Shown: piece after piece, positions 55,072-60,047 of the stretch
Layout of the letters: every line of letters begins with the position of its first letter
How positions within the stretch are numbered: the first letter of the stretch is position 1
Source of the DNA: Methylophilaceae bacterium
GTDB lineage: Bacteria; Pseudomonadota; Gammaproteobacteria; Burkholderiales; Methylophilaceae
Length of the DNA: 64,000 nucleotides
Assembly (NCBI GenBank): GCA_027488395.1
Contig: JAIYBT010000005.1
Coordinates: forward strand, 1-64,000
Direction: 5' to 3'
The notes under the pieces: model-generated
The model's input: only the letters and a program-made list of their open reading frames with translations
The model's database searches: none
What the model was told of the DNA's origin: nothing
Program-made: the position numbers and the translations under genes

Positions 55072-56016
<945 letters not shown>

Positions 56017-56079
56017 TTAAAAATCATCCGTTTCACCAACGGTAATGCGCGGCGATGAGTGCAGCGAAGGGGCTGTCTG

Positions 56080-57666
56080 CTATAAGGATTTTATAAACAC
56101 CTTGGAGTTACGCTGATAGTTATAGAACTGCTGTTTGGCCTGCGGCAGCCCATCCACGTTTTGTTCAACAAAGCCACGTTCGATAAACCAATGTTCGGTG
56201 CGGGTGGTTAAGCAAAACAATCGGGTAAAGCCCTTTTGTTTGGCTTGCAGTTGGCAATAGTTAAATAATTTATCGCCACGGCCTTCACCACGATAGGCGG
56301 GATCAATTGCTAAGCAGGCAAATTCCACCATTTTTTCATGGTTAAACGGGTATAAAGCTGCGCAACCGATGATGCGATTATCATGCTCCATTACATAAAA
56401 ATAATTGATTTCCATCTCGATCCGTTCGCGGCCACGACGCACCAAAATACCTTCGTTTTCCAGCGGCTCAATCAGCAATAAAATACCGCCCACATCATCG
56501 ATGTGCGCTTGGCGCATGGTTTCCAGCGGCAGCTCGGTAATCATGGTGCCGATGCCTTGGCGGGTAAACAATTCTTGAATAATGGCGCCATCAATATGAC
56601 GTGAAATTAAGTGCGTGCGGGTGACACCGTGTTCGCAGGCACGCACGGCAGCGGGGAGGTAATAATTGACATCCTCGGTGTAATATATCGGTTCTTCACT
56701 GTTTTGCACGTTACGTAATAGATTGCGCGCTTTGGCCGAGGTCATTTCACGTAATAATTCACCGCGCAAGTTTTGCACACCTTCGGAATCCATTAAAAAG
56801 ATCAGTTTTTCAGCATCCAGTGCAATTGCGGTGCTGACTGCGACATCTTCTAAGCTTAAGTTAAAGGTTTCCCCAGTAGGCGAGTAGCCCATCGGCGACA
56901 GCAACACCATTTCGCCATCGTCTAGCCGTTTGCGGATCCCCACGGCATCAATTTTGCGCACTTCGCCGGTGTGTTGTAAATCAACGCCATCGCGTACGCC
57001 CAATGGTTTGGCGGTGACAAAGTTGCCACTGGCGACCCGAATATCGCTGCCCGCCATTGGCGAATTGGCAATGCCCATCGAAAGCAAGGCTTCAATTTCA
57101 ACCCGCAACGCGCCGTTGGCTTCTTTCACCGCTTCCATTGCTGCATCGTCAGTGATACGCAGGCCGTTGGCATGCATTTGTGGTGTGATGTGATCGCGTT
57201 TGAGGCGTTGCTCAATTTGTGGCCGCGCGCCATGTACCAATACCAAACGTACTTCTAAACTGGCCAACAAATTTAGGTCATGCGATAAGGCGACAAATTG
57301 TTGCACCCCTAATTGCGCGTCTTGTACCACCTCGCCACCAAATGCAATCACAAAGGTACTGCCACCAAAGGCGTGGATATAAGGCGCGGCTGAGCGAAAC
57401 CAATGCACAAAGGCCTGCCGATTCGCCGATGAAAGCAAAGGTGGCGCGGCTTCAATGGTTTGGCTCGCAGGCTGACTGCCATCATATAAGCGCCCTGGCG
57501 TGGTATTAAGGGCGAGTGCGGTCGCCCTCAATAACGCTTCCGATATACCAATTTCACCCCGTTCAATCCGCGATAAATTGCTGGCATCGGTGCCGATACG
57601 GGCCGCCAATTGTTGCAAGGTTAATTTTTGCGATTTTCGCAAATATCTAATGTTATCGCCAACCAT
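56080..57666 (-). CDS. argA: Fusion of XRE-family HTH domain with N-acetylglutamate synthase (amino-acid kinase + GNAT)
   Basis: N-term IRYLRKSQKLTLQQLAARIGTDASNLSRIERGEIGISEALLRATALALNTTPGRLY (HTH_3); then ArgA-like FVIAFGGEVV...VLVHGARPQIEQRL and GNAT CLAIDPAYRGEGRGDKLFNYCQ; one uninterrupted frame. Confidence 0.92.
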   Translation of the reverse strand: MVGDNIRYLRKSQKLTLQQLAARIGTDASNLSRIERGEIGISEALLRATALALNTTPGRLYDGSQPASQTIEAAPPLLSSANRQAFVHWFRSAAPYIHAFGGSTFVIAFGGEVVQDAQLGVQQFVALSHDLNLLASLEVRLVLVHGARPQIEQRLKRDHITPQMHANGLRITDDAAMEAVKEANGALRVEIEALLSMGIANSPMAGSDIRVASGNFVTAKPLGVRDGVDLQHTGEVRKIDAVGIRKRLDDGEMVLLSPMGYSPTGETFNLSLEDVAVSTAIALDAEKLIFLMDSEGVQNLRGELLREMTSAKARNLLRNVQNSEEPIYYTEDVNYYLPAAVRACEHGVTRTHLISRHIDGAIIQELFTRQGIGTMITELPLETMRQAHIDDVGGILLLIEPLENEGILVRRGRERIEMEINYFYVMEHDNRIIGCAALYPFNHEKMVEFACLAIDPAYRGEGRGDKLFNYCQLQAKQKGFTRLFCLTTRTEHWFIERGFVEQNVDGLPQAKQQFYNYQRNSKVFIKSL

Positions 57667-57684
57667 GATGTATTTTTAATGTGA

Positions 57685-57696
57685 ATTTTGCAAAAT
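57685..57696. promoter_or_regulatory. Candidate operator 1 (perfect 12-bp palindrome) at the argA TSS
   Basis: ATTTTGCAAAAT. Confidence 0.5.
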
Positions 57697-57723
57697 AATA
57701 CGCAATCACTCCTTGATTTGCAA
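57695..57723 (-). promoter_or_regulatory. Predicted sigma70 promoter of the HTH-argA gene
   Basis: Minus strand TTGCAA, 17-nt spacer, TATTAT; predicted TSS about 57688. Confidence 0.55.
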
Positions 57724-57725
57724 AT
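57716..57725. promoter_or_regulatory. Candidate operator 2 (perfect 10-bp palindrome) over the -35 of argA
   Basis: ATTTGCAAAT. Confidence 0.5.
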
Positions 57726-57753
57726 ATACATTTTAAATCAACAAGATTTTATG

Positions 57754-57778
57754 CAAAAAAATGACGGCCGAGGCCGTC
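57754..57778 (-). terminator. Rho-independent terminator on the minus strand, upstream of argA
   Basis: Minus strand GACGGC-CTCG-GCCGTC then ATTTTTTTG. Confidence 0.6.
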
Positions 57779-58009
57779 TTGAGGGGAGGATGAAACAAAG
57801 AGAGAGTACCACACGCATCGGCTGGTTGTTGCGGCCAAACGATGCAGACTAAGCGCGCGTCATGGCTGCGGGTGTTAACTTGCGACATCACACACACTTA
57901 ATCATTGGTCACATAGTAAAACTGACAAAGCAGGCAGACAACTCGTCAAATAACGTATACACAATGGGTAGTGTGAATTAGTTGATGGTGATTGGCTGAA
58001 GCATGGCGA

Positions 58010-58921
58010 TTAAAGCACATAAAACCAGAAAGGCAGGCTGAGCATGCTCAGCACTGTGGTGGTAAACACCGCCGCTGCATATAGCGTACTATCCAGTTGA
58101 TAGCGCTCACAAATCACCACGCCAAATACCATGGTCGGCATGGCGGCGAGCAAGGTCACGGTGGACACGATCTCATGTGGCAAACCCAGCACCTGTGCCA
58201 CATGCCATGCTACCCAAGGCCCCACCAATAATGCCAACACACAGACTGGCAGGAGTGTGTTGAGCAGATGCCAGCTAAACACATCCCAACGGACACTCAT
58301 GCCCAAGGCAATCAGCATCAGCGGCACCACGCCGCCTGCCAGTGTATGCAGCGCATGTTGCACCATTGCTGGCTCTGGTGTGTCGGAAAAATTCAACACA
58401 ACTGCGAGCAACAACGCCCACAAAGGCGGCACCCGCATTAAGGCTGAAAGTGGATGCGCTTTAACGGCACTGCCGCCGTAATGCTGCGCGAGTAAAATGC
58501 CCACTGTGAGCAAAGTGGGCGTACAGGCAAATAAATCATATTTGAGGGTGATGGCTTGCGACCACTCGCCCATCACTTCACTGGTCACTGGCAAGCCTAA
58601 ATACATTGCGTTGGGAAACGTCGCCGCCAATAACAACGCACCTTGTTGCGGCCGATTGAGCGCCATTAAGCAACAACATACCCACATCACACTGAGGTTA
58701 ACAAGAAGACGCGAAAACGCAGTGAGCGCGATACTGGCTGTGCTGACATCAAACGGTGCTTGCCACAACACATCTAGCACCAAAGCGGGTAATAAGATAA
58801 AAAACACCACATCGGTGAGCGCACGTCGATGCGACAGCGCTGATAGATGGTCTGGCGCAACACGGCGCCAAAGCATGCCTGCTGCAATTAATATCGCCAT
58901 TTGACACATCACTGTAAACAC
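58010..58921 (-). CDS. AEC (auxin efflux carrier) family transporter
   Basis: 303 aa multi-TM protein; LPALVLDVLWQAPF... and C-terminal CERYQLDSTLYAAAVFTTTVLSMLSLPFW. Confidence 0.85.
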   Translation of the reverse strand: MFTVMCQMAILIAAGMLWRRVAPDHLSALSHRRALTDVVFFILLPALVLDVLWQAPFDVSTASIALTAFSRLLVNLSVMWVCCCLMALNRPQQGALLLAATFPNAMYLGLPVTSEVMGEWSQAITLKYDLFACTPTLLTVGILLAQHYGGSAVKAHPLSALMRVPPLWALLLAVVLNFSDTPEPAMVQHALHTLAGGVVPLMLIALGMSVRWDVFSWHLLNTLLPVCVLALLVGPWVAWHVAQVLGLPHEIVSTVTLLAAMPTMVFGVVICERYQLDSTLYAAAVFTTTVLSMLSLPFWFYVL

Positions 58922-59081
58922 AGGGTAATCCTCACAAAAGGGGCGTGATCGTTTGTTTGATGAAAATTTTTTTTAGAGGAAGCACGCACTAAAAAACAGA
59001 CTCCGATTTAATCAGACATGCTTATTTTTTCAAGCCATGGATAGTTGAGATAGCCAGGTTTGATGAATATTTTAAAAGGTG

Positions 59082-59312
59082 TTAACCAGCTTCCACGCGT
59101 ACAGAACACTGTAACGCAGTCACACAAGGAATTTCTAAATGACCCGTTGCAGGGAATTTCTCTGTTTCAGCCGTCCAGTCAAATGTATATTTGTCATGGA
59201 CGGGAATAAGACGGTTCGGTCTTTCTTGTAGCACAGACTTGATCGTAAATTGTTGATGAAATCGAATGATGAAGGCAATGACCGTGGTGAATATACCTAA
59301 ATAAAACCACAC
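59082..59312 (-). CDS. Hypothetical small protein with N-terminal TM segment
   Basis: 76 aa ORF, GTG start directly abutting the rsmE stop; no recognisable family. Confidence 0.35.
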   Translation of the reverse strand: MWFYLGIFTTVIAFIIRFHQQFTIKSVLQERPNRLIPVHDKYTFDWTAETEKFPATGHLEIPCVTALQCSVRVEAG

Positions 59313-60047
59313 TTAAAAATCCCCCCATGCCGCCTGCATACAGGCCAGTGCGGTGACTGCCGCGGTTTCGGTACGAAGAATTCTAGGGCCAAGCAAAATG
59401 GATTGAAATTGGTGTTGCATCGCCAAGGTGATCTCACTTGGGCTTAAGCCGCCTTCAGGGCCGATCAGCATATTGACTGGCGTCTGTGGCGCTTTTAAAT
59501 CTGTTAAGCGTTTTGCGCCTTCGGGGTTGAGGAGCATATTAAGCGCTGAGGCGTCACCAAATTGCGCGAGCCATTGCGCCAGTGTGAGGGGCGCATGCAC
59601 TTTGGGCACCACGGCGCGCCCGCTTTGCTCGCAGGCGGCAATCACCACGCCTTGCCAATGCTCGATACGTTTCTCGGCGCGGTCACCAGAAAGCTTGGTC
59701 ACACTGCGTTCGGTGCTTAAGGGGAAAATCTCACTCACCCCTAGCTCCACCGCTTTTTGCAAGGTGTAATCCATGCGGTCGCCGCTAGAAATACCTTGCA
59801 GTAAGCGCACGTTGAGGGGGGATTCATTGTGGATGGCGGTGCGATTGACGACGGTGACATGCGCGGATTTTTTTTCAACGCTGGTGAGGGTGCAGCCATA
59901 ATCATGGCCATCGCCACAAAATAAGGTGAGGCTGTCACCCACGTTTAAACGCAGTACACGGATCGCGTGCGCACTGGCGTTTTCGCTCAAAGGGTGTATC
60001 GCGCCAACTACCAATGGCGTCGGACTAAAAAAACGCAGGTTAGACAT
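59313..60047 (-). CDS. rsmE: 16S rRNA (uracil(1498)-N3)-methyltransferase
   Basis: MLIGPEGGLSPSEI; LGPRILRTETAAVTAL; start at Met 60047 (MSNLRFFSPT). Confidence 0.94.
   Translation of the reverse strand: MSNLRFFSPTPLVVGAIHPLSENASAHAIRVLRLNVGDSLTLFCGDGHDYGCTLTSVEKKSAHVTVVNRTAIHNESPLNVRLLQGISSGDRMDYTLQKAVELGVSEIFPLSTERSVTKLSGDRAEKRIEHWQGVVIAACEQSGRAVVPKVHAPLTLAQWLAQFGDASALNMLLNPEGAKRLTDLKAPQTPVNMLIGPEGGLSPSEITLAMQHQFQSILLGPRILRTETAAVTALACMQAAWGDF

Follow-up and report, generated by a model that had tools for sequence, protein, structure and literature searches.

The argA gene of a Methylophilus genome encodes an N-acetylglutamate synthase that carries an XRE-type HTH domain at its N terminus. 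Comparison of promoters and proteins across the Methylophilaceae, a family of methanol-consuming bacteria, suggests that this protein, HTH-ArgA, is likely a trigger enzyme, an autogenous repressor of argA(-argB) that acts through two dyads in its own promoter. In the mechanism that we propose, HTH-ArgA dimers would bind the two 17-bp dyads via the N-terminal XRE domain; the dyads lie about three helical turns apart, and the bound sites are possibly cooperative. When occupied, site A would cover the −35 hexamer and site B the transcription start from the end of the −10 hexamer, shutting out RNA polymerase and repressing argA(-argB); it is this overlap with −35 and −10/+1 that implies repression. 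Arginine would control the switch, with plentiful arginine probably turning the gene off. Features of the window, by which we mean the whole 64,000-nucleotide stretch analyzed, are listed in Table 1.

Table 1. Positions in the window of the HTH-argA locus and its control elements
Feature	Position	Strand	Basis
argB (acetylglutamate kinase)	55072..55971	-	ORF, Pfam
HTH-argA, XRE domain fused to N-acetylglutamate synthase, 528 aa	56080..57666	-	Pfam, NCBIfam, structure model
Arginine-site motif ELFTRQGIGT, aa 365-374	56545..56574	-	Fits pattern in PMC4490483
XRE HTH domain, aa 1-61, five helices	57484..57666	-	HTH_3 above cut-off; predicted structure
Codon of residue 39 (Ile)	57550..57552	-	0.74 of 0.99 bits, top of 65 HTH columns
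Recognition helix, aa 28-35	57562..57585	-	Predicted structure
Putative operator site B, TTTGCA-AAATT-CACATT, covers predicted transcription start	57678..57694	-	TTTG in 16/16 Methylophilus species
-10 hexamer TATTAT, immediately before site B	57695..57700	-	Consensus scan
Putative operator site A, TTTGCA-AATCA-AGGAGT, includes -35	57708..57724	-	Left half in 16/16 Methylophilus species
-35 hexamer TTGCAA, within site A	57718..57723	-	Consensus scan
Intrinsic terminator stem-loop GACGGCCTCGGCCGTC + T-run, directly upstream of argA promoter	57763..57778	-	Terminator scan

HTH-ArgA is a DNA-binding domain joined to a complete metabolic enzyme. Pfam assigns an HTH_3 domain to residues 6 to 58 (38.1 bits; cut-off, 23), followed by an amino-acid-kinase-fold domain and a GNAT domain, and the protein is recognized by two profiles of classical ArgA, NF003641 (675.7 bits; cut-off, 344) and TIGR01890 (567.1 bits; cut-off, 202.85). 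The helices of the XRE domain span residues 2 to 12, 17 to 24, 28 to 35, 43 to 52, and 57 to 61 in the structure model. The best-matching records are from Methylophilus species, with 85 to 87% protein identity, and the window genome belongs to Methylophilus, family Methylophilaceae. A gap of 108 nt separates HTH-argA from argB in the window; in most loci, argB follows on the same strand within 300 nt and is probably cotranscribed with HTH-argA. A search of positions 55500 to 59500 for Rfam families, up to an E value of 0.5, found none.

The HTH-ArgA query was matched in 182 of 187 Methylophilaceae genomes, nearly always in alignments that start at query residue 1 to 6, and the most distant HTH-ArgA of the family, in a streamlined lineage, still shares 41% identity. 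Members that seemed to lack the HTH (G047, G181, G056, G162, and others) were explained, where inspected, by divergence of the hit, a split contig, or masking of the sequence. We also sampled 220 genomes of Burkholderiales across ∼50 families. The listed ArgA matches outside the Methylophilaceae start at query residue 39 to 85, mostly at ∼80, and the inspected N termini of ArgA from other Burkholderiales families contain no HTH. As far as sampled, the HTH-argA fusion appears to be a trait of the whole family and confined to it. No description of the fusion or its operator was found in the open-licence literature searched.

Upstream of the fused genes, the consensus consists of two 17-bp dyads, TTTGYA-N5-TRCAAA, which occur in full form in genera other than Methylophilus; in most genera, −35 lies within site A, and site B starts where −10 ends. 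The dyad pair outscored all 40 dinucleotide shuffles in 100 of 110 distinct family promoters (mean pair score, 25.5 versus 5.2 when shuffled); it did so in none of 22 outgroup argA promoters, whose mean equals that of the shuffles. The distance between site centers is 28 to 32 bp in 99 of the 110 family promoters, 41 to 42 bp in five, and 50 to 52 bp in six, with no values between these classes. The two longer spacings are found in diverged streamlined lineages (g2 and g15). They are about one turn and two turns of the helix greater than 30 bp, which suggests but does not prove a requirement for the two bound dimers to lie on one face of the double helix. Among g2 genomes, those with the 41- to 42-bp spacing (L194 and L197 to L200) have site B directly abutting the HTH-argA ATG, and bound protein might also hinder start-codon events there.

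Sites in Methylophilus were anchored on paired TTTGYR words; a purely symmetric matrix misplaces several. TTTG is present in 32 of 32 sites, TTTGCA is present at site A in all 16 species, and the distance from site A to site B is 30 to 31 bp in every species. Because TTTG stands at both sites in 16 of 16 species and full dyad pairs occur family-wide, the pair goes beyond chance. The right halves in this genus are decayed, and the main base still kept is the C opposite G4 in the dyad (26 of 32 sites have C14); site A of the window likewise has a strict left half, TTTGCA, and a decayed right half. In Methylophilus, recognition would rest on TTTGYA, the left half of the 17-bp dyad. Right half-sites as poor as those of the window could mean that binding by HTH-ArgA is weak here or different in mode.

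The preliminary description had proposed a minus-strand sigma70-type promoter, TTGCAA-N17-TATTAT, and this is present, with a consensus score of 9 of 12; at the −10 position, all 16 Methylophilus species have TATTAT, TACTAT, TAATAT, or TATTGT. Its description of a ∼22-nt leader without a Shine-Dalgarno (SD) sequence was also correct. The leader (57667 to 57688 in the window; same place in L006 to L020) is devoid of an SD-like sequence in 16 of 16 Methylophilus species, and such a sequence is present in 37 of 94 argA promoters of the remaining family. Several sister species (L013 to L016 and L018) have a hairpin comparable to the terminator of the window at the same place.

What had been described as the operator pair were two perfect palindromes, ATTTTGCAAAAT at 57685 to 57696 and ATTTGCAAAT at 57716 to 57725, with centers exactly 30 bp apart. 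Both exist in the sequence as described, and the regions upstream of orthologous HTH-argA genes do yield conserved dyad pairs across the family. An operator pair overlapping −35 and −10/+1 was therefore retained, but its unit is not an 8- to 12-bp TTTGCAAA palindrome. The palindromes themselves are not conserved upstream of orthologues: TTTGCAAA is found at both sites in one of 16 Methylophilus species, that of the window, and at site A in two. Single TTTGCAAA words are unremarkable, with nine in the window versus 6.9 expected; the genome contains four copies of ATTTTGCAAAAT and 41 sites that match it with one mismatch, so that this word alone is uninformative. Since TTTGCAAA is not enriched, the case depends on arrangement and conservation. 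Since only the left half is strict and only the window species has TTTGCAAA at both sites, the 10- to 12-bp palindromes are best read as left half-sites followed by A-rich DNA, their symmetry being incidental. A third half-site had also been noted upstream. The word TATGCAAA is indeed present at 57750 to 57757, but it is peculiar to the window, all 15 sisters lacking it; it falls on, and is produced by, the T-run of the terminator hairpin, and we dropped it.

Genome-wide scans were run with patterns, not with a matrix. In the 187 genomes, we counted 75 instances of the exact pair TGYA-N5-TRCA-N17-TGYA-N5-TRCA, versus one of the reversed control; 38 of the 75 sit directly upstream of argA, and many others are GC-bearing and coding-like. 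In a scan of 18 genomes, all dyads with an A/T center and two TGTA-type halves were located at argA. The predicted regulon is a single promoter, probably that of the argA(-argB) operon. Other candidates were rejected. A search of 22 congeneric genomes for left-half pairs, TTTGCA-N24-TTTGCR, gave scattered non-argA hits with mostly GC-rich interiors. In several species, operator-like dyads 30 bp apart also occur in the first codons of metW (L150, L151, L152, L167, and L168 at 1501 to 1543; L174 near 1451), where they lie in reading frame within a conserved peptide, ITNxRxDFA(L/I)I(T/A)xW; we discarded metW as a second target, and its dyads are likely a coding coincidence. Of the remaining single dyads, some are intragenic, and those upstream of rpsB have a half-site type unlike that of argA in the same genomes. 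Two Methylotenera genomes carry an identical TTTGCAATTTATGCAAA ∼138 nt upstream of rpsB (L242 at 1007 and L243 at 1017); it is perhaps the site of another factor, the argA sites there being of the TGTA type.

The half-sites fall into two types across the family, TGTA and TGC. Among 65 HTH columns, residue 39 is the most informative on half-site type (0.74 of 0.99 bits): leucine goes with TGTA in 55 of 59 rows, glutamine with TGC in 27 of 27, and isoleucine with TGC in 14 of 15. In the predicted structure, this residue occupies the loop just behind recognition helix 28-35. Methylophilus aquaticus (L016 and L077), which has L39, also has the sole TTTGTA site in the genus. Supported branches provide only about five independent contrasts for the association, and two or three of them agree; with so few, a sign test cannot reach significance. 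Taken together, co-occurrence, specificity, and residue 39 make binding of the operator pair by the fused HTH the simplest account, and the original suggestion that the XRE domain reads the pair is the one to which the evidence points.

The enzyme part retains the arginine site. Residues E365, L366, F367, T368, G371, and G373, which belong to the arginine-site pattern E-(L/I)-(F/M)-(T/S)-X-X-G-X-G-T (PMC4490483), are invariant in 18 sequences, and K287 and E365 are kept, aligning with K201 and E270 of the Neisseria gonorrhoeae enzyme (ngNAGS). In that enzyme, a hexamer, arginine causes the N-terminal helix to move; the hexamer contracts by ∼20 Å along its three-fold axis, and its ring becomes ∼10 Å wider (PMC4490483). 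Our model of HTH-ArgA agrees with 3d2p_A, an arginine-bound structure, at a TM score of 0.89 (by target length). A linker of ∼18 residues, disordered in the model (pLDDT of <50 at residues 67 to 82), connects the HTH to an N-terminal helix at residues 80 to 100. The HTH is tethered to the very helix that arginine moves in the N. gonorrhoeae enzyme, which makes the arginine step plausible, and a corepressor role for arginine is our leading inference. ArgR (Arg_repressor, PF01316) was found in none of 41 genomes, comprising the window genome and 40 relatives, and PF01316 is absent among the Pfam matches of HTH-ArgA. This agrees with a published report that gammaproteobacteria have ArgR and other classes of Proteobacteria lack it (PMC5343134).

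Several alternatives can be weighed against this account. Each 8- to 12-bp TTTGCAAA palindrome might be a whole operator, complemented by the third half-site upstream, as the presence of both perfect palindromes in the window would allow; their restriction to a single Methylophilus species, the lack of the third half-site in the sisters, and the 17-bp dyads with a 5-bp center in other genera make this very improbable. We give almost no credence to the notion that the core promoter alone is conserved and that the palindromes arose by chance in AT-rich DNA. TTGCAA and TATTAT do form a plausible promoter, and the single TTTGCAAA word is not enriched, but site B, which contains no promoter element, is conserved as much as site A, the right halves are kept outside Methylophilus, and outgroup argA promoters have no such pair.

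The remaining alternatives concern the protein. The dyads might be bound by an unlinked Methylophilaceae regulator, leaving the HTH of ArgA with another target or a role in assembly. We regard this as unlikely: although the binding protein is not identifiable from sequence and few independent contrasts underlie the residue-39 association, the dyad pair occurs solely with the fused gene, TGTA-type dyads lie at argA alone in 18 scanned genomes, and the half-site type follows a residue beside the recognition helix of this very HTH. If HTH-ArgA is the repressor, it might still act on its own promoter without regard to arginine, as a control of its level, or be released by arginine. Substrate relieves repression by PutA (PMC8249747), and the flexible linker could make the HTH independent of the enzyme core, which lends such schemes some substance; yet the arginine site is fully kept, arginine shifts the HTH-bearing helix in the related enzyme (PMC4490483), and end-product corepression is the usual logic for a biosynthetic gene, so that we think them possible but doubtful. 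The full form of autogenous repression by HTH-ArgA, in which one arginine site serves both catalysis and transcription, one oligomer cooperatively binds dyads about whole turns apart, and HTH and operator have coevolved family-wide, we consider an even call.

If the proposal is true, one protein, and probably one arginine site, would serve both to inhibit arginine synthesis by feedback and to repress it in a family without ArgR, and N-acetylglutamate synthase would join the short list of trigger enzymes. The family also offers a natural series of enzyme-operator pairs, with TGTA versus TGCA half-sites and spacings near 30, 42, and 51 bp, that allows direct tests of how DNA recognition and site spacing evolve.

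The job proposed for HTH-ArgA, arginine-dependent repression of arginine genes, is that of ArgR, but the proteins are unrelated, and ArgR governs many genes, whereas one promoter was found for HTH-ArgA. The N. gonorrhoeae enzyme (2r8v and 3d2p) shares the kinase-fold and GNAT domains and the arginine site and is without an HTH or known DNA binding. BzdR of Azoarcus has a weakly similar HTH and operators with paired TGCA sequences (PMC6678401); however, it is catabolic, senses benzoyl-CoA, and differs in its C-terminal domain and operator spacing. HTH-ArgA is not a BzdR: the BzdR model NF006015 matches residues 2 to 84 only, with 20.2 bits against a cut-off of 204. The closest parallels are PutA, BirA, and NadR of Escherichia coli, trigger enzymes in which a metabolic enzyme regulates transcription with its own DNA-binding domain (PMC8249747). 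Like HTH-ArgA, NadR combines an N-terminal HTH with a biosynthetic enzyme. For PutA, DNA binding is limited to its own promoter region, as predicted for the HTH-ArgA regulon. HTH-ArgA differs from all three in that the enzyme is N-acetylglutamate synthase, which catalyzes the first step of arginine synthesis; in that an XRE-type HTH is carried by an arginine-inhibited, probably hexameric enzyme; and in having two 17-bp dyads in a fixed arrangement that flanks the −10 of the argA promoter. The proposed mode of action is thus that of known trigger enzymes, and the N-acetylglutamate synthase variant is apparently new.
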